Part shown: positions 1 through 47,144 of the stretch, one piece after another | Numbering within the stretch: position 1 is the first letter of the stretch | Layout: each line of letters starts with the position of its first letter | Assembly (NCBI GenBank): GCA_017445925.1 | Contig: JAFSRW010000028.1 | Location: 1 to 47,144, forward strand | Source: Bacteroidaceae bacterium | Lineage (GTDB): Bacteria > Bacteroidota > Bacteroidia > Bacteroidales > Bacteroidaceae | Direction: 5' to 3' | DNA: 47,144 nucleotides | Made by a program: the position numbers and the translations under genes | Notes under the pieces: generated by a model | Seen by the model: only the letters and a program-made list of their open reading frames with translations | Told to the model about the DNA's origin: nothing | Database searches by the model: none

Positions 1-954
1 TGCCATCGATTTCGGGTTCTTGGCACCAAAGGACTTAACAATCTTAGCCCACAGCATACGGCCTGCACGCATCTTGGCAATCTCCATGAAGTGGTTCATA
101 CCGATAGCCCAGAAGAATGATAGACGGGGAGCGAAGGCATCTACGTCGATACCGGCATTGATACCGGCACGTAAGTAATCCATACCATCGGCCAGCGTGT
201 AAGCCAACTCGATATCAGCTGTAGCTCCAGCTTCCTGCATGTGGTAACCAGAGATAGAGATACTGTTGAACTTAGGCATCTTCTGAGAAGTGAACTCGAA
301 GATGTCGGCAATAATCTTCATTGAGAATGCTGGTGGATAGATGTATGTGTTACGCACCATGAACTCCTTGAGGATATCGTTCTGGATGGTACCAGCCATT
401 TCCTCAAGCTGTGCGCCCTGCTCCAGACCGGCATTGATATAGAATGCCAAAACGGGCAATACGGCACCATTCATAGTCATGGAAACAGACATCTTGTTCA
501 AGGGAATTCCATCGAACAGAACCTTCATGTTCTCCAAAGAGCAAATACTTACACCTGCCTTACCTACGTCACCAACCACACGAGCATTGTCGGGGTCGTA
601 ACCACGATGGGTGGGAAGGTCAAATGCAACGGAAAGACCCTTCTGACCAGAAGCCAGGTTACGACGGTAGAAGGCATTACTCTCCTCAGCGGTAGAGAAA
701 CCTGCATACTGACGGATGGTCCATGGGCGGAAAGGATACATCATACTATAGGGGCCACGCAGGAAGGGAGGAATACCGGCAGCAAAGTCCAGATGCTCCA
801 TACCCTCGAGGTCCTCTTTCGTGTAAACGGGCTGAATGTTTATCTGCTCAGGAGTCTTCCAATTGGCAGAGATACCATTCTCTTTTTGCCAGTCGCGGCC
901 ATTCTTGGCTTCAATCCCGGCAAAGATATCGATGTCTTTGAAATTCTTTTTCAT
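1..954 (-). CDS. mutB: methylmalonyl-CoA mutase large subunit, N-terminal part (cut by window edge)
   Basis: Catalytic, adenosylcobalamin-dependent subunit of methylmalonyl-CoA mutase, which interconverts succinyl-CoA and (R)-methylmalonyl-CoA in propionate/succinate metabolism. I translated the minus strand from ATG at 954 ([13 protein letters not shown]...). It stays open to base 1, giving about 318 residues. Visible family landmarks are the N-terminal segment with [20 protein letters not shown], the [12 protein letters not shown] and [14 protein letters not shown] stretches, and the TIM-barrel core up to the [18 protein letters not shown] segment. The C-terminal B12-binding domain lies outside the window. 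Only 2 nt separate the small-subunit stop (957-959) from this ATG, so the two are almost certainly cotranscribed and translationally coupled. Following Propionibacterium naming, mutA is small and mutB is large. Confidence 0.95.
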
Positions 955-10052: not shown

Positions 10053-10126
10053 AGACAAAAGTATAAATAAGTGAGCGGAAAACAAAATAAAAGCCTGTTT
10101 TTATTTTCATTTCCGGATAGAAGTTA
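10053..10126 (-). promoter_or_regulatory. dispersed promoter element, copy upstream of the GH43 protein
   Basis: On the minus strand TTTG (10086-10083), 19 nt, then TACTTTTG (10063-10056). The spacer holds CCGCTCACTTAT, and the upstream part ATCCGGAAAT...AAAATAAAA resembles the copies at 40663-40869 and 41921-42005. Transcription would start about 30 nt before the ATG. The rest of the gap 10023-10169 shows no gene. Confidence 0.7.
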
Positions 10127-34891: not shown

Positions 34892-36418
34892 TTAATCTTT
34901 TACTATTGGTAATGTTATTATAAATTTTGTTCCTTGTCCTATCTCACTGGCAGCCTTAATGGTACCATGATGCATATCTACCATTTTCTTCACATAGGTA
35001 AGACCTAAGCCAAACCCTTTGACATTATGCTTGTTACCAGTGTGTACACGGTAGAACTTCTCGAAAATACGTTTCAAATCATCCTTCTGAATACCAATGC
35101 CATTATCCTTGATACTTATGCAGAGATAATCCTCACCCTGATTCCATGTAACTACCTCTAAGTGAAGAGGTTCATCCTCACGACGGTACTTAACGGCATT
35201 GTCGAGAAGGTTGAAGATGATATTTGTAAAATGCATCTCATCAACATTCACAAAGGGGTTATATGCCTCTAACCTGGTATCTAAAGTGCCACCGTTCTGA
35301 CTTACCTTGAGCGAGAACGTCTGAATTACATTATCTATCAACTCATTGGCATCCAGTTCCTGAAGCTTAAGCGCAATATTATTATGGTCAAAGAGGCTCA
35401 TCTGCAATACCTTCTCCACTTGGAAGCGAAGACGGCGCGTCTCATTGTTGATGACATCTCCTAAACGCTCATAGGTACCGGCATCCTTATTGACACTCTT
35501 GTCTGTAAGCATCTGTGCTGCAATGGAGATGGTAGAGATAGGCGTTTTAAATTCATGCGTCATATTATGAATAAAGTCGTTCTTCATTTCACTAATCTTC
35601 CTCTGTCGTACTATAAGGTATACCGTTACCAGGAAAGTAACAAACAGGATGAAAGTGAAAATCATAGCAGGCAGCACATAGTTGGCCACACCACGAATGT
35701 ACTTTTGGCGATCAGGAAAATGAACGCATACAATTCCCTTCTGTTCTGTGGGGTCGCTACGGAAAAGCAACTGCTGATAAACGTGCCCAGTTCCGTCCTC
35801 TGTGTAGTCCTCGCACCTGTACACTTCTCTACCATCAGCAGTATAAACTATGTAATGAAAGTTAAGATTGATACCATTACTCAGCAAGGCTCCACGCAAG
35901 AAGTTGTCAAGTTCTGCCTGAATAATTCTATCCTGGAAACGGAGCGTGCTGGCCGAACGCATAACGCCAAAGATAACCTCTTCAAGCACACCACGCTCGT
36001 ACATATAGGCTTCCTGCACTTGTTTGCTAAACTGGTTCAGGGACTCACGGTTAGGACGTGGCATGGTTAAAGAATTAGGAAACCGATTAGGATGACGCCC
36101 TACCGTTTGCATGTTTTCATTCTTCTTCAATTCCGTTGAATCAAGAATTATAGATACAGAAGAAGAACGGTTAGGGTTCAAGAAGGTCTTCTCTTGTTTC
36201 TCTTGCTCACGACGGTTTATGACATTTTCCAGATAATGGTAGGTCTCAGACCGCTCCATGTCGCGAGAAGCCTGATCAATGCTACGCCTAACATTCTCGT
36301 CGAATTGCTCCTCACGCATCCTCACCATAGCTGTAGCATACATTCCCTGCAGGTATAGCAAGACGAGGAAGGAAATTCCAACCAGCAAGCAGATAATTAG
36401 ACTATAAACCTTTTTCAT
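34892..36418 (-). CDS. rprX: sensor histidine kinase RprX
   Basis: Membrane histidine kinase of 508 residues from ATG 36418 (MKKVYSLIICLLVGISF). An ATG 51 nt upstream is in frame but lies upstream of the -7 box. A first helix (5-25), a periplasmic sensor region (about 26-255) with coiled-coil-like ends, and a second helix (about 258-282, YVLPAMIFTFILFVTFLVTV) lead to the kinase core. The H box is HNMTHEFKTP, the N box LLDNAVKY, followed by KDNGIGI and GFGLGL. It phosphorylates the adjacent regulator RprY. The signal sensed is unknown. The promoter sits so close that the mRNA would start at, or a base or two before, the ATG. Confidence 0.93.
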   Translation of the reverse strand: MKKVYSLIICLLVGISFLVLLYLQGMYATAMVRMREEQFDENVRRSIDQASRDMERSETYHYLENVINRREQEKQEKTFLNPNRSSSVSIILDSTELKKNENMQTVGRHPNRFPNSLTMPRPNRESLNQFSKQVQEAYMYERGVLEEVIFGVMRSASTLRFQDRIIQAELDNFLRGALLSNGINLNFHYIVYTADGREVYRCEDYTEDGTGHVYQQLLFRSDPTEQKGIVCVHFPDRQKYIRGVANYVLPAMIFTFILFVTFLVTVYLIVRQRKISEMKNDFIHNMTHEFKTPISTISIAAQMLTDKSVNKDAGTYERLGDVINNETRRLRFQVEKVLQMSLFDHNNIALKLQELDANELIDNVIQTFSLKVSQNGGTLDTRLEAYNPFVNVDEMHFTNIIFNLLDNAVKYRREDEPLHLEVVTWNQGEDYLCISIKDNGIGIQKDDLKRIFEKFYRVHTGNKHNVKGFGLGLTYVKKMVDMHHGTIKAASEIGQGTKFIITLPIVKD

Positions 36419-36423
36419 ACAGG

Positions 36424-36455
36424 CAAAGGTAAAGGCTTTTCTTAAAGAAAACAAA
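36424..36455 (-). promoter_or_regulatory. promoter of rprX-rprY
   Basis: TTTG (36455-36452), 20 nt, then TACCTTTG (36431-36424) on the minus strand. The -7 box ends 5 nt before the ATG at 36418, implying a leaderless transcript. The -33 box lies in the T run of the fusA2 terminator. Confidence 0.75.
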
Positions 36456-36484
36456 AAAAGCTGGCACAAAACGTACCAGCTTTT
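36449..36484 (-). terminator. intrinsic terminator after the EF-G2 gene
   Basis: On the minus strand AAAAGCTGG (36484-36476) pairs with CCAGCTTTT (36464-36456), an 11-nt interior, followed by a T-rich run. It lies about 45 nt after the EF-G2 stop. Confidence 0.8.
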
Positions 36485-36529
36485 AATATATTTAACAATA
36501 CTATATGATTATAGTTGTTAAAATGGTAA

Positions 36530-38689
36530 TTACTTCTCTTCTGATAAGGTTGCCTGATAAGCAGCAATCAACTTAGACTGAACATCGCCAGGAACCAGTT
36601 CGTAAGAAGCGAACTTGGTGATGAAGCTGGCACGTCCACCAGTCAAGCTACTGAGTGCTGTACTATAGTTCGACATTTCCTTCTGAGGAGCCTTAGCTGT
36701 GAGTTTCTCATAACCATTCTCACTGGTCATACCCGTAATCATAGCACGGCGTCCCTGCAAGTCACTCATCACATCACCCATCTTATCGCTGGGAACAAAT
36801 ACTTCCACATCATTGATTGGCTCAAGAATCTTTGGACCAGCCTCCTTGAAGGCCAGAGCAAAGGCCTGACGTCCTGCCAACATAAATGAAAGTTCATTGC
36901 TATCTACTGGGTGCATCTTACCATCATATACAATTACGCGAACGTCACGGGCATAGCATCCTGTCAGAGGTCCCTGCTCCATACGCTGCATAACACCCTT
37001 AAGGATAGCGGGCATGAAACGTGCATCGATAGAACCACCAACGATACTGTTTATAAATACGAGCTTGCCGCCCCATTCCAAGTCGATGACCTCAGTGCCC
37101 TTGACATTGATGCGATATTCCTGACCACCGAATGTATAAACCTCAGGATCTGGCATACCTTCATAATAGGGCTCTACAATGAGATGAACCTCACCAAACT
37201 GACCAGCACCACCAGACTGTTTCTTGTGACGGTAGTCGGCACGGGCAGCCTTGGTAATAGTCTCACGATAAGGAATCTTAGGCTCGTCGAAGACAATCTG
37301 GATCTTCTCGTTGTTCTCCATACGCCACTTGAGGGTACGCAGGTGGAATTCACCCTGACCATGTACAAGAATCTGACGCAACTCCTTACTCTGCTCAATT
37401 ACCCATGTAGGATCTTCCTCGCGCATCTTCTGGAGGGCATTCATCATCTTCTCAGTCTCGCTCTCGTTGACAGCACGAATGGCACGACTATACTTAGAGT
37501 TAGGATACTTGATGAAGTTGAAACGGTTGTCGCAATCCTTACCATTCAGGGTATTGCCCGTCTTAACGTCCTTAAGCTTAACGGTACAACCTATATCACC
37601 GGCTACCAGTTCTTCCACCTTAATACGGTTGGCACCAGCACAAACAAAGAGCTGTGCCATACGCTCCTTACTGCCACGATCAGCATTAGTAAGGTCATCA
37701 CCTTCCTTAACTGTACCGCTCATTACCTTGAAGTACTGAACCTCACCAATATGGGGCTCAACAGCAGTCTTGAAGAAGAACAGACTGGTAGGACCTGCAG
37801 GATCAGGAGTAATTTCTTCGCCACGAGTATTGAAGACCTTAGGCATTTCGTCTACGAAAGGAACCACATTACCCAGGAACTCCATCAAACGACGAACACC
37901 CATATCCTTAACAGCATCTACGCAGAATACAGGGAACATACCACGTGAAGCCAATCCCTTGCGGATACCTTCGCGCATTTCGTCCTCAGTAAGATCTTCG
38001 CTTTCAAAGAACTTCTCCATCAGGCTCTCATCATGCTCGGCAGCAGCTTCTATCAATGCCTTGTGCATCTCGGTAGCCTTATCCATCTGGTCAGCAGGAA
38101 CTTCCTCGATAGTAGGAGCACCACCTTCAGGACCCCATGAGTACTTCTTCATAAGCAATACATCAATCAGCGCATTAAAGTCAGGACCTGTTGCAATAGG
38201 ATACTGAACAGGAACTACCTTTGGGCCATAGATGGTTCTCAGTTGCTCCAGAAGATTATCATAATCGCAATTCTCATCATCCAACTGGTTCACCAGGAAG
38301 ATAACGGGCTTGCCCAACTTCTCTGTATAGCGGAAATGGTTCTGGGTACCAACCTCTACACCTGCACCTCCCTTAATAAGGATAACAGTAGTATCTGTTA
38401 CGTTCAATGCTGTAATAGCAGAACCGACAAAGTCATCACTACCAGGGCAATCAATAAAATTCAGCTTCTTGCCATTCCACTCTGTATGGAAAACAGTAGA
38501 GAATACGGAATAACCATACTCCTGCTCTACTGGGAAATAATCACTAACGGTATTCTTCTGGGTAATACGACCTCTTCTTTTGATAATGCCTGCCTCGTAA
38601 AGCAAGGCCTCAGTAAGGGTTGTCTTACCCGCACCATCATTGCCCATCAGGGCAATGTTTTTAATCTCATTTGTTTTGTAAACCTTCAT
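36530..38689 (-). CDS. fusA2: EF-G2-type elongation factor G paralog
   Basis: Translation-factor paralog of 719 residues with the five-domain EF-G layout. The GTPase motifs are altered: P-loop GNDGAGKT (16-23) in place of the usual AHIDHGKT form, switch I YGYSV (58-62) where EF-G has RGITI, DCPGS (80-84) with Ser84 in place of the catalytic His of DTPGH, and NQLD in place of NKxD. This matches the Bacteroides EF-G2 class, reported to support translation without efficient GTP hydrolysis during carbon starvation and gut colonisation. Domains II-V follow normally, ending with KFASYELVPGDVQSKLI. I see no consensus -7 box in the 144 bases upstream, consistent with activator-controlled expression. 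The canonical EF-G gene is not in this window. Confidence 0.9.
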   Translation of the reverse strand: MKVYKTNEIKNIALMGNDGAGKTTLTEALLYEAGIIKRRGRITQKNTVSDYFPVEQEYGYSVFSTVFHTEWNGKKLNFIDCPGSDDFVGSAITALNVTDTTVILIKGGAGVEVGTQNHFRYTEKLGKPVIFLVNQLDDENCDYDNLLEQLRTIYGPKVVPVQYPIATGPDFNALIDVLLMKKYSWGPEGGAPTIEEVPADQMDKATEMHKALIEAAAEHDESLMEKFFESEDLTEDEMREGIRKGLASRGMFPVFCVDAVKDMGVRRLMEFLGNVVPFVDEMPKVFNTRGEEITPDPAGPTSLFFFKTAVEPHIGEVQYFKVMSGTVKEGDDLTNADRGSKERMAQLFVCAGANRIKVEELVAGDIGCTVKLKDVKTGNTLNGKDCDNRFNFIKYPNSKYSRAIRAVNESETEKMMNALQKMREEDPTWVIEQSKELRQILVHGQGEFHLRTLKWRMENNEKIQIVFDEPKIPYRETITKAARADYRHKKQSGGAGQFGEVHLIVEPYYEGMPDPEVYTFGGQEYRINVKGTEVIDLEWGGKLVFINSIVGGSIDARFMPAILKGVMQRMEQGPLTGCYARDVRVIVYDGKMHPVDSNELSFMLAGRQAFALAFKEAGPKILEPINDVEVFVPSDKMGDVMSDLQGRRAMITGMTSENGYEKLTAKAPQKEMSNYSTALSSLTGGRASFITKFASYELVPGDVQSKLIAAYQATLSEEK

Positions 38690-38833
38690 ATTTTTTGTTA
38701 TTTATGCTATTAGTTTTAATTTTCAGGGGTTAAAATTAGCAATAATATTTGAACTGACAATAGAAAATTTATATGTTAAACAACATGTTTTTCAATACAG
38801 GGCAAACAGGAAAAGAAGAAATGGAGAAAGAAG

Positions 38834-39955
38834 CTAACACATCAGGTCGCTGATAACGCTGTTGGAAATAAAAATTCCTTTCCGCGAAAGACGCAGGGTA
38901 TCGCCATCTCTTAACAGGTTTCCACAACGTAAATGCTGCTCTGCCATCTGCAGGCAATAGTCTTCTTGCTCAGGTGTAAGAGCTGGCAGACGAAGTCCTG
39001 AAGCTGTACGCAAACGCGTCATAATCATTTCGTCATATTGTTCTTCGCGAGAAAGAACCTCCACCTGATGAGGGACATCTGCTGTTGCAGACACATATTC
39101 CTCTAACGAGGTATTGTTCGACCTACGGACATTCTTACCATCATAAGAATGTGCTCCAGGCCCCAAGCCCAGATAGGGGGAACCGTCCCAATAACTGCTG
39201 TTATGTCTGGCACGCATACCTGGTTTAGCAAAGTTGGAAATCTCATAATGCTCATATCCCCAGGCAGCAGCTTCATCCATCAGATATTCATACATCCTCC
39301 ACGATAGTTCATCAGGAACCTCTGAAACTTTTCCCTCCTGAAGCATCTTATATAGGGGAGTACCATTCTCGTATGACAAGGCGTAGGCACTCAGATGGGG
39401 AACACCAAGTTTCAGCAATTGCTGAACATCACATGTCCAAGCCTCAAATGTCTGACCGGGCAGACCATATATCAAGTCAAGGCTGATGTTGTTATAACCT
39501 GCATCCCTGAATAGTTGCACAGCTTGCAAAGCCTGTTCAGAAGTATGCCTACGGTTTAGGAATCGCAGCATTTCGTCCTCGAAGGTCTGCACACCCATAC
39601 TTATACGGTTTACAGGTGTCTGGTGCAAAGCATCTATCAAGCTGGGCGTTACATCATCGGGATTAACCTCGATGGTAACCTCCGCATCTTCGGTAAGCGT
39701 ATAGTTGTCCTGTACAGCCTGAAACAACTCTATCAGTAAATCTGGGGGCAACTGGCTGGGGGTTCCGCCTCCTATATATAAAGAAGGTACGCGCGAGAAG
39801 TCTATTTCTGGACGCCTCAAGCGCATTTCACGCTTAAGGGCAGAGATATAAGAACGCTTCCACTCCAAACCACAGGTTGTAGAATAGAAGTCGCAATAAA
39901 TGCAACGTTTCTGACAAAAAGGTACGTGAATGTATATGCCGCCTACCTTAGTCAC
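38834..39955 (-). CDS. hemW: radical SAM heme chaperone HemW
   Basis: Cytosolic radical S-adenosylmethionine protein of 373 residues that delivers heme, formerly annotated as oxygen-independent coproporphyrinogen oxidase. The cluster motif is CQKRCIYC (Cx3Cx2C), which lacks the extra downstream Cys of true HemN. Other landmarks are SLYIGGGTPSQL, VTIEVNPDDV, NRISMGVQTFED and GYEHYEISNFAKPG. I place the start at GTG 39955 (residues TKVGGIYIHVPFC), overlapping the DUF4827 stop by 8 nt. The long upstream ORF start would run through the DUF4827 gene. It is cotranscribed with the lipoprotein gene upstream. Confidence 0.93.
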   Translation of the reverse strand: MTKVGGIYIHVPFCQKRCIYCDFYSTTCGLEWKRSYISALKREMRLRRPEIDFSRVPSLYIGGGTPSQLPPDLLIELFQAVQDNYTLTEDAEVTIEVNPDDVTPSLIDALHQTPVNRISMGVQTFEDEMLRFLNRRHTSEQALQAVQLFRDAGYNNISLDLIYGLPGQTFEAWTCDVQQLLKLGVPHLSAYALSYENGTPLYKMLQEGKVSEVPDELSWRMYEYLMDEAAAWGYEHYEISNFAKPGMRARHNSSYWDGSPYLGLGPGAHSYDGKNVRRSNNTSLEEYVSATADVPHQVEVLSREEQYDEMIMTRLRTASGLRLPALTPEQEDYCLQMAEQHLRCGNLLRDGDTLRLSRKGIFISNSVISDLMC

Positions 39956-40643
39956 GGCATTCCTGATAAAGGATTTCGTAGAAGCAGGGATAGACATTGG
40001 AAGCAGCATTGCTCTGTCCGGCCGTATGGGGCACTATCAGTCTGACTTTGGCTATTTCACCTTCAGCTGTTGTTTGCCTTCCCACACGGATATAGGGAAG
40101 AGGAGCCAACCAGCCTTCCAGAACCTTCTCTTCGCCGTAAGTCTGGTACATAGAACCAGCCATATCGCCAGTAACAAATCTGCCAGAGAATGTGCCGGAC
40201 GTGTTGGTTACTGCCATAATATCAGGATTCGTATGCCAATAGCTAACGTCGTTACGTAACTGAAGGCTGTCACCCAATATATTGTATTCAATAAAACGGC
40301 AGGCTATCTGGCGCGTCTGCCCCTTGGCAACTTTCTCACCTACACCCCTCCTGACAATCTGCATATATATACCATTATTGGCAAAGAGCACATACTCGTT
40401 ATTCTCAAGATTAGTGGTAGAATCCTGGTCTAAGAAAGTCTGCTCGGTGATTACATTAATAACGCCAACGTTGCAGATGGTATCACCCGATGGGCCAACA
40501 ATTGTAACATCACGCTTTAAGAATGCATCTACCGCCTTACGTTCCTTGTCTTTCTGCTCGGCGTAAGTCTGATCATCAGAACAAGAGATAAAACCTGCAA
40601 AGGCTATCATCAAACTTAGGGCTGTATAAAGAAACTTTTTCAT
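39948..40643 (-). CDS. DUF4827 family lipoprotein
   Basis: Exported lipoprotein of 231 residues with signal peptide MKKFLYTALSLMIAFAGFISC ending in the lipobox Cys. The mature part begins SDDQTYAEQKDKER. It resembles the DUF4827 family, found in Bacteroidetes and often next to hemW, with an FKBP-like overall design (charged N-terminus, then strands NNEYVLFANNGIYMQIVRRG). The function is unknown. It is transcribed from a set of tandem promoters in the 83-nt repeat upstream, and its stop overlaps the hemW start. Confidence 0.82.
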   Translation of the reverse strand: MKKFLYTALSLMIAFAGFISCSDDQTYAEQKDKERKAVDAFLKRDVTIVGPSGDTICNVGVINVITEQTFLDQDSTTNLENNEYVLFANNGIYMQIVRRGVGEKVAKGQTRQIACRFIEYNILGDSLQLRNDVSYWHTNPDIMAVTNTSGTFSGRFVTGDMAGSMYQTYGEEKVLEGWLAPLPYIRVGRQTTAEGEIAKVRLIVPHTAGQSNAASNVYPCFYEILYQECRD

Positions 40644-40662
40644 ATACTATCTATTTTGTCTG

Positions 40663-40869
40663 CAAAGGTACGAATAAGTGAGCGGAATACAAAAAAAACA
40701 CTTTATTTTTATTCCCGAACGAGAGTATTTTAGAGACGAAGGTCTCAAAGGTACGAATAAGTGAGCGGAATACAAAAAAAACACTTTATTTTTATTCCCG
40801 AACGAGAGTATTTTAGAGACGAAAGTCTCAAAGGTACGAATAAGTGAGCGGAATACAAAATAAATCTCA
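40663..40869 (-). repeat. tandem 83-nt promoter repeat upstream of DUF4827-hemW
   Basis: Two full units (40663-40745 and 40746-40828) differ at one base; a third (40829-40869) breaks off after its first 32 bases. Each unit carries, on the minus strand, a complete promoter of TTTG, 19 nt, TACCTTTG: TACCTTTG at 40670-40663, 40753-40746 and 40836-40829, with TTTG at 40693-40690, 40776-40773 and 40859-40856. A dyad (GTTCGGGAATA against TATTCCGC) surrounds the -33 region. The related dispersed copies are at 10053-10126 and 41921-42005. Confidence 0.92.
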
Positions 40870-40879
40870 CTCACATAAT

Positions 40880-41911
40880 CTATTTTAACAAATGGGCATA
40901 GGATTTTATGGCTTCACGAACTTTCTCAATAGCCTCCTCCATGCTGCAATAGAGTTTCCCGCCACTGGCATTCTTATGCCCTCCTCCATTAAAGAACTGA
41001 GCCGACATATCGTTACAGGGGAAATCATCAACGCTGCGCAGACTAACCTTTACCACACCGTCATGTTCTGTATCTTCGCTGAGGAAGACGCTCAGTCTCA
41101 TGCCGGATATCTGCAAAGGCATATTAACTATGCCCTCCGTATCACCATTCTTAATACCGAGCATCTTGCGTTCTTGGTTGGTAAGCGTGATAATACTGGC
41201 ATGCAGTTCAGGAAGGTTCTCCATCTTAACATATAGCAGATAGCCCGTAAGTCGCATCCGCGCTATGGAATACGTCCAGAAAACATTCCTGTATATCTTG
41301 TCCTTGTCGATGCCACGATTCAGCAGATGTGAGATGCATTCAAACACCACAGCCCTGTTCGAGTTAAAGGTGAAAGCACCCGTATCGCACATCATGGCAG
41401 CATATATACAGGTAGCCTCATCACGTGTAATCTGCTCCAGTTCCCCCAACTGATACAGCAAGTGACAAATCACCTCAGCAGAAGCACACATATCCGGACG
41501 GGATATTACCAACTGGCAGAAATCCGTAGGATTAAGATGATGGTCTATCATAATCTTGGGTGCTGGATTCGCCATCACGCAGGCTTCCAACTCCTGCATT
41601 CTGGCAGAATCATTCAGGTCTGTAATAATGAACAAATCTGCTTCGGCCACAATGGGTTCAACCGTTTCTTCATGTTTTAGGTAAACCTTTATATCCTTAG
41701 CTCCAGGCATCCACTGCAGGAAATCAGGAAAGATGTTAGGAACCACCACCGTAACTTGCTTACCCTTACGAGTCAGCCAGTGCTTTAATGCTAAGGTAGA
41801 GCCTACAGCGTCACCATCAGGTGACACATGGGCACAAATCACCACTTTCCTGGCATTATCTATCAAACCAGAAATCCTACTCTGTTCTTCTTCTGTCAGT
41901 ATCTTCTCCAT
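40880..41911 (-). CDS. nrnA: DHH/DHHA1 phosphoesterase NrnA (nanoRNase / pAp phosphatase)
   Basis: Cytosolic phosphoesterase of 343 residues that degrades short oligoribonucleotides and usually hydrolyses pAp. DHH motifs in order: HVSPDGDAVGS (residues ~28-38), the TDLND acid, the MIDHHLN motif, CDTGAFTF, and the DHHA1 substrate motif GGGHKNASGG near the C-terminus. The length fits the Bacillus enzyme. The leader from the nearest promoter box is about 5 nt. The upstream region is a copy of the dispersed promoter element; downstream on the same strand lies the tandem repeat. Confidence 0.94.
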   Translation of the reverse strand: MEKILTEEEQSRISGLIDNARKVVICAHVSPDGDAVGSTLALKHWLTRKGKQVTVVVPNIFPDFLQWMPGAKDIKVYLKHEETVEPIVAEADLFIITDLNDSARMQELEACVMANPAPKIMIDHHLNPTDFCQLVISRPDMCASAEVICHLLYQLGELEQITRDEATCIYAAMMCDTGAFTFNSNRAVVFECISHLLNRGIDKDKIYRNVFWTYSIARMRLTGYLLYVKMENLPELHASIITLTNQERKMLGIKNGDTEGIVNMPLQISGMRLSVFLSEDTEHDGVVKVSLRSVDDFPCNDMSAQFFNGGGHKNASGGKLYCSMEEAIEKVREAIKSYAHLLK

Positions 41912-41920
41912 AATGGGTTA

Positions 41921-42005
41921 CAAAGTTACGATTAAGTGAGAGAAAAGCAAAATAAATAAAGATTTATTTTCTTATCCGAACGAAAGTACCTTTTCGTCGT
42001 TAGAG
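41921..42005 (-). promoter_or_regulatory. dispersed promoter element, copy upstream of nrnA
   Basis: On the minus strand TTTG (41951-41948), 19 nt, TAACTTTG (41928-41921), spacer with CTCTCACTTAATCG, and an upstream part (GTTCGGATAAGAAAATAAA) that resembles the 83-nt units. It is more diverged than the tandem copies. The -7 box ends 9 nt before the ATG. Confidence 0.75.
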
Positions 42006-42015
42006 ATATGGCATT

Positions 42016-42822
42016 TTACTTTTTAAACGGGTCGCCTTGTGGGTCTTTACTAACCACCCAACGGAAAGCATTCACAAATAGGAGGTTCTGGGTAGCATCA
42101 ATAAAGCTCTCGTCGCCATGTCCCATGTTTAGGTATACCATTCTGTATTTCTTGTTAGTCCATACGATAGGAAAATCGCCAAACTTCACAACATCTTTCA
42201 GTCCGAAAGGATACATCTTCTGTGAGATGCTTACCAGTACTTCCACGTCTTTGTTCTTACGTGGTGATGGATTCCACTGATAAAACTCGCTTGCCGGTAC
42301 AACGAACTCCTTCGGTAGTGAAATGGTAACCGGATGCTCATTGGTATCACATACCACCATTGCCGGTTGTGGCGGCCAGTTATTACAATAAAAAGTCCCG
42401 CATCCCAGAAACTTGTTAAGCCATGGCCAATTGGTGTTACGGTCATTATATGCCGAAGCATGGAAACCTAACCATCCCCCCCCATTCTCCATGTATTTCT
42501 CAAAGGCTTCCCGCTCTGCCTTCCCACCAGGTGCGGCATTCAGACTGACAATGACGCTATAGTCCTTCAGTTTCTCATAAGGGTAGTCGGCAAGCGATGT
42601 GGTAACGTCCATGAGCCAGCCCTCACCGTATGTGAGTTTTTGGAAGAACTTTATGGCCTGCCCATCGAACTGAACATGTGCCTCTTCTGCACCTGGCTGC
42701 CATAAGAACAACGCCTTGAAGCGGGGTTCTCTGGCATAGTTGGCAGGATATTCTCCTTCATTCTGAGCAACAACGGTGGTGCAAAAAACAACCGTCATCA
42801 ATAAAAGCATAATTTTTCTCAT
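42016..42822 (-). CDS. secreted ThuA-domain protein
   Basis: Exported protein of 268 residues starting at ATG 42822 (MRKIMLLLMTVVFCTTVVAQ, signal peptide); the longer ORF start at 42861 would overlap the gene upstream. The body is a ThuA-like (trehalose-utilisation, class I glutamine-amidotransferase-like) domain: KALFLWQPGAEEAHVQF, DYSVIVSLNAAPGG, GGGWLGFHASAYND and RMVYLNMGHGDESF. ThuA-like proteins are linked to carbohydrate handling but lack a firm biochemical role. It lies 17 nt after the GH18-ThuA gene and shares its transcript. Confidence 0.85.
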   Translation of the reverse strand: MRKIMLLLMTVVFCTTVVAQNEGEYPANYAREPRFKALFLWQPGAEEAHVQFDGQAIKFFQKLTYGEGWLMDVTTSLADYPYEKLKDYSVIVSLNAAPGGKAEREAFEKYMENGGGWLGFHASAYNDRNTNWPWLNKFLGCGTFYCNNWPPQPAMVVCDTNEHPVTISLPKEFVVPASEFYQWNPSPRKNKDVEVLVSISQKMYPFGLKDVVKFGDFPIVWTNKKYRMVYLNMGHGDESFIDATQNLLFVNAFRWVVSKDPQGDPFKK

Positions 42823-42839
42823 AACTATATTAGGATTGG

Positions 42840-44564
42840 TTAATTCTCCTCCAAAGTCCATTTCAGCGAGTTTTCCAACAACTTTACAAACTGAGGATTA
42901 TCGAAAAGCAACTTGCTGTGTCCAAATTGGAAATATACATTTCGGGCACCTTTTGTCGGATTTGTCCAGACCACGGGATGGTCCCCCATCTTAATGTTGG
43001 TCTTTATGGTGTAGCTTGCTTCATCTACATGTGCCAAAACATGCACATTCTGTCGTGGATTCCGGTTATAGGTGTACCATTCATCATCTTCGATGACAAA
43101 TGTCCCAGCTACATCTTTCATTACAGGATGCTGCCTATCTTCCACCTGAACTGTTCCGTCACACTTATCCGCGATGTAGTTGTCATACCTTACTCCTCCC
43201 ATGAAATCAGAGAACCATTGCCACAAGCCATAGCCATCGAACTCACCAAGCAATGATGCATGATGAAAGCCTATGTAGTTTCCTATCCCCTTGTCAATAT
43301 AACTTTGGAAGTCTTGCTGGGCCTCCTTGCTCCATGCATAGGGCGGATGATTCAACTGGAGTATCAGATGATAGTTGTTCAGCTCATCTTTTTTGATATT
43401 CTCTGCCGAATTCAAGACCGTCAGTTCCATATTGAAACGCGCCTTCTGATTCTCAAGCCATTGTAGTCCTGCTGCCGTGAAAGGCTCATGAAGTCCTCCT
43501 CTCTCCGCAAGCACAAGAACCTTACGTGCCGGCATAGTGGCTTTTTTGTTTTTCATCAGCGACAGGCAGAGAGTCTGCCGTTCATCTCCCTGACTGTTGT
43601 CGCTGGCATAATCCCAGTACATTCCGCCTCGCAGGTCATTATCCAGGATATACTGGCATTTAGCCATCAGCGACCGTATATTCTCATAGCCTCTTACCAG
43701 CTCGCCACGCTCATTGGTGATATACGGAACCTGTCCCGTTTCATCCCATCGTTTGCTGTATCCCTTGGGCAGTATTCCTGTTTTGTCATACTCCTTAAGT
43801 CCATCGTCTTTACGGTCGCCTCTGCCATAGAAAGGCACGCCCATAACCAGTTTCTCCTTGGGTACACCCGCTTGCAAATGGCTCTCAACAGACTGTGAGG
43901 CCGTACCATAGCCCGAGATGGCTGATGGGTAGAGAGCCGCATGGTGCTTGGGAGGGTTACCCATATCGTATGCCATTACATTCACAAAGTCCATGTACTG
44001 TATACACGAGCGGAAGTCTATGTATTTAGCATTGTGTACCGTAGCAGCGGTTATCAGTTTCCCTTTCCCCAGCGTGCGCCGAAGGTCACGCATCAGCAGC
44101 GTGAAGTTGCCTGTATCATCCGGAGAGGAAGATATTCCTGCTGACGACTGAGTGGGATATTCCCAGTCAATATCAATACCGTCAAGCTCGAACTCCCTGA
44201 CAACTCTTTGGCAATCCCTCACGAAAGCCTGGCGGTTTTTGTCAGAGGCAGCCATCTCGCTGAACCTACCGCTTCCCCACCCTCCTATACTAAGCATAAC
44301 TTTGAGTGACGGATTCTTACTTTTTAACCCAACTATCATGCGCAGTCGGTCAGGGTTGTCTATTCTCACACCATCGAAGGACTCATTAACATGTCCGAAA
44401 GCATAGTTGATATGCGTCATCACATTAGGGTCAGGCACCTCGTTAGTCCATGAAGTCACGTATGCCACCACTATCATATTATCCGGAGCCTTAGTCTTCC
44501 CAAGGGCTATAGTTGACAGGCTCATGGCAAGCAATAGCAGAAAATACTTTCCAAAATTTTTCAT
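42840..44564 (-). CDS. secreted GH18 chitinase-like protein fused to a ThuA-like domain
   Basis: Exported protein of 574 residues with signal peptide MKNFGKYFLLLLAMSLSTIALG. The first part (about 30-345) is a GH18 barrel: YVTSWTNEVPDPNVMTHINYAF, LSIGGWGSG, and the catalytic motif DGIDIDWEYP with all three Asp and the acid Glu, then MAYDMG and GVPFYGRG. The second part (about 350-574) is a ThuA-like domain (VLVLAERGGLHEPF, GFHHASLLGEF, VVWTNPTKGARNVYFQFGHS). GH18 enzymes act on chitin or on N-glycans (ENGase type); which applies is unclear. It is followed by a stand-alone ThuA gene, so the fusion and the neighbour may cooperate. A -7 element lies about 70 nt upstream. Confidence 0.87.
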   Translation of the reverse strand: MKNFGKYFLLLLAMSLSTIALGKTKAPDNMIVVAYVTSWTNEVPDPNVMTHINYAFGHVNESFDGVRIDNPDRLRMIVGLKSKNPSLKVMLSIGGWGSGRFSEMAASDKNRQAFVRDCQRVVREFELDGIDIDWEYPTQSSAGISSSPDDTGNFTLLMRDLRRTLGKGKLITAATVHNAKYIDFRSCIQYMDFVNVMAYDMGNPPKHHAALYPSAISGYGTASQSVESHLQAGVPKEKLVMGVPFYGRGDRKDDGLKEYDKTGILPKGYSKRWDETGQVPYITNERGELVRGYENIRSLMAKCQYILDNDLRGGMYWDYASDNSQGDERQTLCLSLMKNKKATMPARKVLVLAERGGLHEPFTAAGLQWLENQKARFNMELTVLNSAENIKKDELNNYHLILQLNHPPYAWSKEAQQDFQSYIDKGIGNYIGFHHASLLGEFDGYGLWQWFSDFMGGVRYDNYIADKCDGTVQVEDRQHPVMKDVAGTFVIEDDEWYTYNRNPRQNVHVLAHVDEASYTIKTNIKMGDHPVVWTNPTKGARNVYFQFGHSKLLFDNPQFVKLLENSLKWTLEEN

Positions 44565-44633
44565 TGTGTTAATATGTTATACAATACAAGCAGAATTTAA
44601 ATCTCTTATTCCCCATTCAATACATTCCGCTTG

Positions 44634-44641
44634 CAAAGATA
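44634..44641 (-). promoter_or_regulatory. -7 element of the GH18-ThuA gene
   Basis: TATCTTTG on the minus strand, about 70 nt before ATG 44564. No -33 TTTG is seen at 19-20 nt. The 44565-44791 gap otherwise contains only this and the divergent promoter. Confidence 0.5.
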
Positions 44642-44721
44642 CAAAAAAATCTTTTATTTTGTATTGTTCTCACTTAAGACTCGACAAACAAAGTTTCACG
44701 AATAAATATTTGCAAGAGTTT

Positions 44722-44753
44722 CTTGCTTGCAAGACATTATTTATATAAATTTG
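44722..44753 (+). promoter_or_regulatory. promoter of the metallophosphoesterase gene at 44.8 kb
   Basis: CTTG (44722-44725), 20 nt, then TAAATTTG (44746-44753). The -33 box lacks one T; the -7 box is an exact TAnnTTTG match. Confidence 0.5.
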
Positions 44754-44791
44754 TGGCGAATTGTGAATAGTTAAGGAAAACAAACAAGGTT

Positions 44792-45919
44792 ATGGATTAT
44801 AGGGTAATGAAACAATTTTATATTCTATTATTTACACTATGTGTTACGTTCGCAACCAAGGCACAAAGGGCTGAGGTACAACTGAGCAATCAGGAATCAT
44901 TCTCGATGATTGTCTTTGGCGATGCACAAAGTTATACGCGGTTCGACCAGAACCAACCCATCCTGGAACTCTGCACAGCATGGATGGCGGGCAATGCCGA
45001 GAAACTGAATTTACAAGCCGTGCTCTTTACGGGCGATGTGGTTCAGACGAACGACAATCTGGTAGTGAAAGGCAAAAAGAACCACAACCAGACCAGCCGC
45101 CAGCAGTGGCAGTGGGCCAGTCATTGTCTGGAACGGTTGGATAATCGTGTACCATACATTATTGCTGGTGGCAACCACGAATATGGTTACATGCGCGGCG
45201 ATGAGGACTTTACACATTACCCCGAATATTACACCCCTGAACGCAATAGCAAAACAGCCGAACACTTGGTGGCAACTCTACCCAACCGTTTGGGACAGGC
45301 ATCGCTGGAGAATGCAGCATGGGAGTTCGAAACGCAACATTGGGGCAAGCTACTGATAATAGGTACCGAATGGGCACCCAGAGATACGGTCCTCTGTTGG
45401 GCTCGTGAACTTTGCGAAAGCAACCGCTACAAGGACCATACGGTTATCTTCCTGACTCACAACCTGCTCAAGGAGAGTAAAGGTGGTGGAACGCCCAAAT
45501 ACACCAATAGCAATTACAAGGTTTCAGACCCTAACTGGGGGCAACAGATCTGGGATAAACTGCTCTATCCCTGCAAGAACATCCGTCTGGCCATTTGCGG
45601 CCACACAGGACACCCAGCCTCCGATGACGGAAAGGAGCCTGGCAGCGATTACGACTTCTTGAGCAATATGGCTTACCGATGTGATAAGAATGCTTCAGGC
45701 CTGAGTGTCCACCAGATGATGTTCAACGTGCAGTACCTCTCTGGCGGTGCTGGTGGAAGCGGTGGCGATGGATGGCTACGCCTGTTGGAATTCCTGCCTG
45801 ACGGCAAAACCATAAAGGCCAGCACCTACAGCGTGCTCCTTGGCTGCTCGCCTGTCACCAAACACTTAGCCAACCGAACAGACCCCTGCTGCCAGTTTGA
45901 ACTGGTAATAGAGAAATGA
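44792..45919 (+). CDS. secreted metallophosphoesterase
   Basis: Exported calcineurin-like phosphoesterase, 375 residues from ATG 44792; ATG 44807 (MKQFYILLFTLCVTFATKAQ) would give a more usual signal peptide and is equally likely. Metal-binding motifs: VFGDAQSYTRF (first Asp), FTGDVVQTND, AGGNHEYGYM, FLTHNLLKES and AICGHTGHPA. It differs from the Tat-type enzyme at 29 kb and is not a close copy of it. Members are often involved in phosphate release or glycan phosphate processing; the substrate is unknown. It is divergent from the GH18-ThuA operon. Confidence 0.85.
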   Translation: MDYRVMKQFYILLFTLCVTFATKAQRAEVQLSNQESFSMIVFGDAQSYTRFDQNQPILELCTAWMAGNAEKLNLQAVLFTGDVVQTNDNLVVKGKKNHNQTSRQQWQWASHCLERLDNRVPYIIAGGNHEYGYMRGDEDFTHYPEYYTPERNSKTAEHLVATLPNRLGQASLENAAWEFETQHWGKLLIIGTEWAPRDTVLCWARELCESNRYKDHTVIFLTHNLLKESKGGGTPKYTNSNYKVSDPNWGQQIWDKLLYPCKNIRLAICGHTGHPASDDGKEPGSDYDFLSNMAYRCDKNASGLSVHQMMFNVQYLSGGAGGSGGDGWLRLLEFLPDGKTIKASTYSVLLGCSPVTKHLANRTDPCCQFELVIEK

Positions 45920-45952
45920 AGCCGTTGCACACCAAACAAAGGCATGGTGCAG

Positions 45953-46212
45953 TTAGCTGCCACTTAGGAGAATTCCTGTCTGCTTCAAACGATTTAGTCT
46001 GGATGTGATGATTTGATTATAGAGGTCTTTCAGGGTGTTGATGGTCTCGATGTTCGATGTGAAGATTTTCTCCAGCGTCAGCGGATAATCCATGCGTGGC
46101 ACAAGCTGAGCCAAATCAATTCTACTCTGGTTGAACGTCTCGGGATTGTCCAGAATCTCCAGCTGTTTGTCGAAGAAGCAGTTCAGGCACTTTCAGTTTC
46201 ATCTTTTTTCAT
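45953..46212 (-). pseudogene. small conserved-looking gene broken by a frameshift
   Basis: On the minus strand ATG 46212 opens MKKDETESA and then meets TGA. A -1 shift at GAAAG (near 46191) lets reading continue in another frame to TAA at 45953-45955: CLNCFFDKQLEILDN...NRLKQTGILLSGS, total about 85 residues. The downstream frame has the composition of a real protein (amphipathic, LEKIF...ETINTLKDLYNQ) and a good promoter box precedes it. I recognise no family. A single-base deletion in an A run, a sequencing error or programmed shifting would all fit. The gap 45920-46415 holds nothing else I can support. Confidence 0.5.
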
Positions 46213-46234
46213 GTTTTTGGGGTTTATCGTGGGA

Positions 46235-46242
46235 CAAAGATA
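46235..46242 (-). promoter_or_regulatory. -7 element of the frameshifted small gene
   Basis: TATCTTTG on the minus strand, 22 nt before ATG 46212. No -33 box at the usual spacing. Confidence 0.4.
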
Positions 46243-46377
46243 AGCATTTTTCACATTTTTATATTTTTTTCAGACAAAAATCTGCCATTTTAACTCCCCT
46301 GAATGCTTGTTGTTTACTCTTAACACTCCATTATGATTGTTTAACGATACAGGCTGTGAGGGATGCCGGAATATTCC

Positions 46378-46385
46378 TACTTTTG
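46378..46385 (+). promoter_or_regulatory. -7 element of the rightmost gene
   Basis: TACTTTTG followed by CTGCC, 30 nt before ATG 46416, the same form as at proS. No -33 box at the usual spacing. Confidence 0.4.
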
Positions 46386-46415
46386 CTGCCGGATTTACGA
46401 AAACGGACATACACA

Positions 46416-47144
46416 ATGAAACAATTTACCCTTTGCCTCTTGCTGCTGTGGCCCCTATGGGCGCTGGCGCAAGAAGAGGACAGCACCTTTCAGATAGCTC
46501 GCGTACGTACGCTGCAGGAGGTGCTGATAAAGGCCGAAGAGCCTGCGTGGATAAGACAGAAACTGAAACTTTTTATCCGGAAACGCGATGAAAACTACCA
46601 GCGGGAGCCATGCTTCAGCGCGTACGATTTCTTCTTCCAAGATACAGGCTCCGACCTCCAGCGCGGCTCCATTCGCACCGTTACGGACTCTCTGACAGCC
46701 TACAGGTTCCAGAGCCAAGGCTTGCTGCTCTCGCCTTCGGTAGCGCAGATAAAGCAGGACAGCGTCTTTCAGATAGCACCCGAGCACAACACCGTCTTTG
46801 GCACCGATACGGCCTGCGTCAGTCATCCCGACAGCGCTTATGTGCGTTGGTCTTACCTCAGCGAGATGCTTTACGAGAATCTTATCCGCTCGCTCGACAA
46901 GCATTTCCTCAGCCAGCATCGCTTTGCCGTAAACTGGGATTTCGAACATCCGAATCCCAATGTCGTGCAGCTCGTCTTCTGGTCAACTAAGTATCAGTTG
47001 GATCGTGGCTATCTGAACCTCGATACAGCCCGTTGCATGGTCTTGGAAGCTGAGCGTCACAGCGGTTTGGATTGCATAAGGCACGAGTTCTGCAACAGCT
47101 TTGCCCTCTGGGTGTTAGGCAGGTTTGTAAAGCTTCAGCTAAAA
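46416..47144 (+). CDS. secreted protein of unknown function, cut by right edge
   Basis: Translated from ATG 46416, open to the end of the window (243 codons). It begins with a signal peptide (MKQFTLCLLLLWPLWALAQ) followed by a charged region (EVLIKAEEPAWIRQKLKLFI, RKRDENYQREPC), then segments such as YDFFFQDTGSDLQRG, QGLLLSPSVAQIKQDSVFQI and WDFEHPNPNVVQLVFW. I recognise no family. The composition is that of an ordinary exported Bacteroidetes protein. Two shorter ORFs overlapping it in other frames are shadows. A -7 element lies upstream. Confidence 0.7.
   Translation, partial: MKQFTLCLLLLWPLWALAQEEDSTFQIARVRTLQEVLIKAEEPAWIRQKLKLFIRKRDENYQREPCFSAYDFFFQDTGSDLQRGSIRTVTDSLTAYRFQSQGLLLSPSVAQIKQDSVFQIAPEHNTVFGTDTACVSHPDSAYVRWSYLSEMLYENLIRSLDKHFLSQHRFAVNWDFEHPNPNVVQLVFWSTKYQLDRGYLNLDTARCMVLEAERHSGLDCIRHEFCNSFALWVLGRFVKLQLK

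Follow-up and report, generated by a model that had tools for sequence, protein, structure and literature searches.

A tandem promoter array before bamK-hemW is one site of a dispersed, probably mobile family of two-hairpin promoter cassettes in gut Bacteroidales

Results

Three promoter cores in series precede bamK-hemW

The window, the whole stretch of 47,144 nt analysed here, lies in a draft Bacteroidaceae genome (G000) and carries on its minus strand the gene bamK (DUF4827), followed by and overlapping with hemW. Both genes were recovered with NCBIfam models well above cut-off, in agreement with the DUF4827-hemW naming of a preliminary description of this DNA. Upstream of them, TRF reported one tandem array at 40658–40864 (period 83, 2.5 copies, 97% matches, 0% indels, score 391), in which TTTG-N19-TACCTTTG occurs three times on the minus strand, spaced by exactly 83 nt. 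The two box-to-box units had an identity of 0.989 over 91 columns, that is, one difference, located in the loop of the hairpin after the box, and the distal third copy kept the core and spacer and diverged beyond. The preliminary description had reported an 83-nt period with two full copies one base apart, a truncated third, the promoter motif in each copy and a dyad around the -33 region, and all of this was confirmed, the dyad corresponding to hairpin B below. A second dyad, absent from that description, covers the -7 box and start region. The features are as follows.

38834..40009, minus strand: hemW (radical-SAM protein), overlapping the end of bamK; NCBIfam HemW, 261.9 bits, cut-off 205.4
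39948..40643, minus strand: bamK (DUF4827), first gene downstream of the array; NCBIfam BamK, 229.8 bits, cut-off 120
40663..40693, minus strand: gene-proximal promoter core TTTG-N19-TACCTTTG, box ending 19 nt before the bamK ATG
40746..40776, minus strand: middle promoter core
40829..40859, minus strand: distal promoter core, adjoining the upstream gene, as does the single core of the closest relative (L047)
40663..40753, minus strand: unit 1, box to box, 83-nt period, left box in common with the middle core; model match E 8.6e-16
40746..40836, minus strand: unit 2, box to box; model match E 5.2e-16
40726..40753, minus strand: hairpin A of unit 1 (left -7 box, stem AGAC/GTCT, start of R arm), coordinates counted on the sequence
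40809..40836, minus strand: hairpin A of unit 2, coordinates counted on the sequence
40684..40715, minus strand: hairpin B of unit 1 (GGAATA..TATTCC, containing the -33 TTTG), coordinates counted on the sequence
40767..40798, minus strand: hairpin B of unit 2, coordinates counted on the sequence
41921..42013, minus strand: another single family unit, before a DHH/DHHA1 gene (40880–41911); model match E 2.8e-12
10056..10075, minus strand: a further family promoter core (loose match), 33 nt before a 1749-residue ORF

Sigma-ABfr promoters have TTTG about 19–21 nt upstream of TAnnTTTG, and this arrangement was found three times in the array. The elements correspond to those given for the sigma-ABfr promoter of Bacteroidetes, TTTG near -33 and TAnnTTTG at -7 (PMC7366714). 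Judging from this consensus, the cassettes would have promoter activity, and the gene-proximal core is probably the working promoter of bamK-hemW.

The unit is dispersed over the genome and its relatives

The array matched 41 places in its own genome by BLAST, itself included, and CTCNCTTANTCGTANNTTTG had 69 exact matches compared with 0 for the backwards control. A covariance model built from an alignment of 43 units gave 91 matches (E up to 0.001) in this draft genome, which is 83.7% complete. In the eight genomes with the closest BamK (G031–G038, G031 being the closest relative), the model matched 98, 70, 101, 79, 94, 56, 51, and 51 places, respectively (range 51–101); by their sequence records, the nearest relatives are ruminant-gut Bacteroidales that have not been cultured. 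Five other genomes gave 113, 29, 30, 2, and 13 matches, and 18 genomes of the same genus 0 to 42 each; among 12 genomes of the same order, two had weak matches (5 and 3). At family level, a survey with stricter filters and at most 35 candidates scored per genome covered 121 genomes, of which 32, the present one among them, matched at E up to 1e-6, representing 11 of 30 genera. The near-identity of the two units agrees with the preliminary description, but its view of a promoter amplified specifically for the bamK-hemW operon is not supported, because the unit is dispersed over the genome.

Units were typically placed before genes. In 39 stretches of G000, 38 of 44 terminal cores were followed by an ORF that begins no more than 250 nt away (median 33 nt), compared with 17 of 44 in the reverse direction (ORFs required an ATG and at least 80 residues, or at least 60 if running off the end). 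Reading of the protein starts identified nqrA-, sufB-, leuS-, and hisG-like genes, among others, downstream, so that no common regulon was apparent. Being short, dispersed, non-coding and palindromic or inverted at its ends, the unit resembles a MITE, and similar promoter sequences precede unrelated genes, as they are said to do in putative mobile promoters. Neighbouring cassettes in arrays have one box in common, with a spacing of 74–88 nt (83 at bamK). Near-identical units made up 7 of 10 arrays and unlike units (identity 0.51–0.71) were stacked in the other 3.

Two hairpins and a broken mirror promoter

Read towards the gene, the unit consists of TAnnTTTG, which lies in hairpin A, a short stem (AGAC/GTCT, GGC/GCC, and other variants), an R arm conserved as roughly CGAAnnTACTCnCGyTCGG, the A/T-rich hairpin B with the -33 TTTG (GGAATA..TATTCC, ACAATA..TATTGT, and others), the spacer CTCRCTTAWTCG, and a second TAnnTTTG. 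Over 42 distinct rows, 89.2% of cells were paired, compared with 78.1% after shuffling and at most 51.2% after sliding, and 114 cells were changed on both sides compared with 35.2 in shuffles, the structure having been derived from the same sequences. Neither the number of pairs with two-sided changes (13 vs 11.2; 13 or more in 64 of 500 shuffles) nor the number of pair types (22 vs 24.4) was above that in shuffles. In the A stem and inner B there were 650 Watson-Crick cells and 3 G-T cells; since G-T cells are nearly absent, pairing at the DNA level or copying of one arm from the other fits better than a selected RNA. Folded as single-stranded DNA, the window unit had a z of -1.78 (12 of 200 shuffles as good), and four further units had z values of -2.63, -3.77, -2.79, and -5.36, the last being a virus unit. 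An RNA-hairpin function was rejected: the array folded as RNA gave z -1.18, with 24 of 200 shuffles at least as good, and G-T pairs were nearly absent. Rfam had no match at gathering scores in the window from 36000 to 47144, and nothing covering a unit in ten loci searched to E 0.5. One stretch contained, at 349–415 (+) of L030, a match to the Bacteroidetes sRNA FopS (RF04319; 77.2 bits, gathering 56).

The R arm can pair with the left or the right box, and the two pairings were about equal in fit. The first variable box base paired with the R arm in 26/43 (left) and 33/43 (right) units, and the second in only 13/43 and 16/43. Opposite the third T of TTTG an A was never found (0/42), while its neighbours were paired in 41/42 and 42/42. 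On their own strand, the R arms from 40 distinct places read TTCG (32), TTAG (7), or TTGG (1) and never TTTG; the mirror-image promoter is therefore regularly broken at one base of the -7 box, possibly as a result of selection. With a looser pattern, an A stood at the mirror position in 12 of 117 places, and those inspected were ordinary promoters read backwards or chance matches that had no R-arm sequence. An invertible promoter, present in both orientations between inverted repeats, was rejected on the assemblies, as no R-type loop followed by TTTG was found at 40 distinct places in the examined loci.

Two variant arrangements were also seen. In L014, the R-arm position is occupied by a real reverse promoter core, giving a divergent pair (cores ending at 1585 (+) and at 1684 in minus-strand count), as would be expected if each half of the palindrome were active. 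In L015, L041, and L173, a composite end recurs, in which TAACATTG is followed by the hairpin AGTCTGTTTCACAGCCTC and then by a further box; it is present at several sites.

Units are also found in virus contigs

A search of IMG/VR with a 20-nt promoter pattern gave 17 stretches, located on 15 contigs that range from 4 to 145 kb. Fourteen of the 15 records were searched with the model and all matched, with 1 to 10 matches each, as expected for records chosen by the pattern. PHROG families were matched by 3 of 10 proteins from unit-bearing contigs, so some of these contigs are plausibly phage. Among distinct virus-contig units, 9 of 13 had an ORF start within 150 nt, and the units were mostly single in appearance. 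A search of named phages and plasmids with one unit gave no match.

Cassettes come and go between related genomes

The preliminary description had proposed comparing unit number at the locus among related strains, and this was done here at the species level. The bamK promoter has three cores in G000, one in G031 (BamK 94% identical at the protein level), one in G032, two in G033, and one in G036, while G034, G035, G037, and G038 have no core of this type; unit number is thus variable between species. Turnover at other promoters was judged only at genes with a cassette in G000, since the 38 G000 stretches had been picked by their match to the window repeat; the 24 G031 stretches came from among the matches listed for 13 genomes, a few comparison stretches reach a contig edge, and arrays inherited from a common ancestor are counted more than once. 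Relative to G031, 10 of 23 orthologous promoters had the same number of cores, 8 a different number, and 5 none, so that 13 of 23 differed or lacked cores. The corresponding numbers (same, different, none) were 3, 5, and 8 of 16 for G033, 4, 4, and 5 of 13 for G035, and 1, 4, and 8 of 13 for G036. These counts depend on the pattern: L016/L182 have 2 and 1 cores under the strict pattern and 2 and 2 under the loose one.

Individual loci illustrate the changes. L026 carries two units and L282, the corresponding locus of G033, a single one, and a gene segment of the two loci is 99% identical. L029 has one unit compared with three in L172. In L021 the distal core is the counterpart of the single core of G031 (L273), and an extra gene-proximal unit has a different hairpin B. 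Hairpin arms differed as blocks between orthologues (L016/L182, L030/L179). At position 657 of L046, the G033 and G036 counterparts lack the unit and have similar sequence on both sides, and counterparts without the element (L011, L046) retain the -7 box and a similar 5' UTR. Turnover was not universal: L009 matches its counterpart in the closest relative, L185, exactly at three cores, L028 and L169 are almost the same, and 10 of 23 counts agree. Separately, the stretches L022/L165 and L026/L282 were 99% identical, compared with about 91% (G031) or 81% (G033) near the window, hinting at recent exchange.

The unit is dispersed, has a defined structure, lies before genes, and is gained or lost between relatives. 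In our view the bamK array probably belongs to a dispersed family of MITE-like promoter cassettes, whose members spread and capture resident promoters. Among the alternatives, an old, conserved class of palindromic promoters inherited in place fares best, although we regard it as unlikely. Arrays would then change by slippage or unequal crossing over, and the arms would stay complementary through template switching in replication (quasi-palindrome correction) or because a DNA cruciform is selected for. The near-identical units in 7 of 10 arrays, the almost exclusively Watson-Crick nature of paired changes, and the identity of L009 and L185 all agree with such inheritance in place, which alone leaves unexplained the stacks of unlike units, the unit-less counterparts, the range of 0 to 42 matches within one genus, and the copies on virus contigs.

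Inner cores often have an altered -7 box

In an altered -7 box, A replaces the first T of TTTG, mostly giving TAACATTG. Such boxes were present in 11/28 inner cores of G000 and 13/48 of its relatives (24/76 in total), compared with 3/41 and 2/78 terminal cores, respectively (5/119 in total; Fisher p 0.0019 and 6e-5), a core being counted as terminal here if neither a next core nor a hairpin A was recognised after it. All five altered terminal cores precede a hairpin-A-like sequence, and the post hoc exclusion of these gives 0/114. Cores with a hairpin A but no next core had an altered box in 0/3 and 2/10 cases, cores with a next core but no hairpin A in 1/2, and virus terminal cores in 0/14. 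Since inner boxes are often altered, arrays do not in general maintain a series of working starts. At bamK all three -7 boxes are intact, contrary to this trend, so serial starts could still operate there.

These data bear on the reading of the array as a local amplification switch, in which one, two, or three serial starts would set the level of BamK and HemW. The three intact cores, the differing core number at the locus among the eight relatives, and a chain counted as five cores before the leuS-like gene of G036 speak in its favour, but the unit is found genome-wide and ATTG replaces TTTG in the inner cores counted above, and we judge this reading improbable. That the unit number is an assembly artefact of the draft contig is very improbable: contigs do often end near units, and the 83-nt unit is shorter than a typical short read, but the two units of the array differ at one base, and arrays recur in separate assemblies, such as the identical three cores of L009 and L185.

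Search for a mobilizing enzyme

No transposase could be tied to the cassette. The Y1 (RAYT-type) transposase family PF01797 had no match in G000, G031, G032, G034, and G037, which are incomplete drafts, and matches were present in G033, G035, G036, G038, and others (9 of 27 genomes). Among 11 single units, the left and right boxes, compared as a possible target-site duplication, agreed in 4, where shuffling gave a mean of 2.1 (p 0.13).

A multi-copy sequence was observed at 13 places, and at each of them it stops no more than 5 bases from a contig end. Of its like copies, 5 of 6 in G000 (L190, L191, L193, L197, L199) and 6 of 6 in G031 (L189, L192, L194, L196, L198, L200) lie directly against a unit; there the sequence adjoins TAACTTTG plus hairpin A of the unit, with an open frame running to the junction. 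In L195 (G000:C46) the same sequence lies inside a gene at TAACTTCGACTA, a site resembling a -7 box, and one diverged copy adjoins no unit. It was absent from G033 and G035, and a peptide search for the body of the repeat in 18 genomes returned nothing beyond contig ends. A possible reading is an insertion sequence with the promoter palindrome as its target.

Discussion

In the mobile cassette reading that we favour, the element comprises the left TAnnTTTG in hairpin A, the R arm, hairpin B, the spacer CTCRCTTAWTCG, and the right TAnnTTTG, which would serve the gene. Spread to resident promoters would occur by transposition or by recombination between promoters (insertion or conversion); what lies upstream of the -7 box would be exchanged, and the 5' UTR would stay in place. 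Unit number would then mainly be a by-product of cassette turnover, with a minor role for the outer copies. More tentatively, the cassettes could be non-autonomous mobile promoters of a class not described before: two-hairpin elements, common to gut Bacteroidales and their viruses, which enter at a resident -7 box, take over the gene, stack by box sharing, and are near-palindromes with a mirror promoter always broken at one -7 box base.

If the favoured reading holds, some gut Bacteroidales have replaceable cassettes for many of their promoters, and gene control there can be rewired by element turnover and not by point mutation. It would also provide a natural system for testing the spread of mobile promoters between host genes and viruses. 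It would further caution against taking a promoter repeat in this group for a local event.

The motif letters were absent from the literature searched, and the searches pointed to BrickBuilt, REPs, and mobile promoters. Matus-Garcia, Nijveen and van Passel reportedly described putative mobile promoters in 2012 as short repeats that act as promoters and spread within genomes. By that description, the cassette differs in its defined two-hairpin anatomy, tandem box sharing, and copies on virus contigs. The cassette resembles the sigma-ABfr promoter in its TTTG near -33 and TAnnTTTG at -7, and also has a conserved spacer, R arm, and two dyads, while the sigma-ABfr description, in the part available to us, names no conserved spacer or hairpins (PMC7366714).

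Like REPIN/REP elements with RAYT, as far as the available portions of the reports describe them, the cassettes are short, dispersed, non-autonomous palindromes in tens to hundreds per genome, with complementary changes in their hairpins (PMC8049555, PMC3733652). By the same portions they differ in that the element is the promoter itself and that no GTAG tag lies outside the stem; the tag was absent from the foot of the hairpin in the unit consensus (PMC8049555, PMC3733652). Membership in the REPIN/RAYT class was rejected, with no Y1 transposase match in the incomplete draft of G000.

BrickBuilt is described, in the part of the report available to us, as a minisatellite-bearing MITE of Porphyromonas gingivalis with a 23-nt unit, a leader, and a tail at 19 sites, and its promoter activity was demonstrated in E. 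coli reporters (PMC4596501). Both BrickBuilt and the cassette are dispersed intergenic Bacteroidetes repeats with tandem units varying in number; by description, the cassette differs in its unit of 83 nt (elsewhere 74–88 nt), which holds a complete promoter and two hairpins, with no leader or tail found (PMC4596501). The two-hairpin anatomy is absent from the descriptions of BrickBuilt, REPINs, and mobile promoters, in the portions available. On these sources, BrickBuilt is the nearest described Bacteroidetes case, and REPINs and mobile promoters are the nearest concepts.
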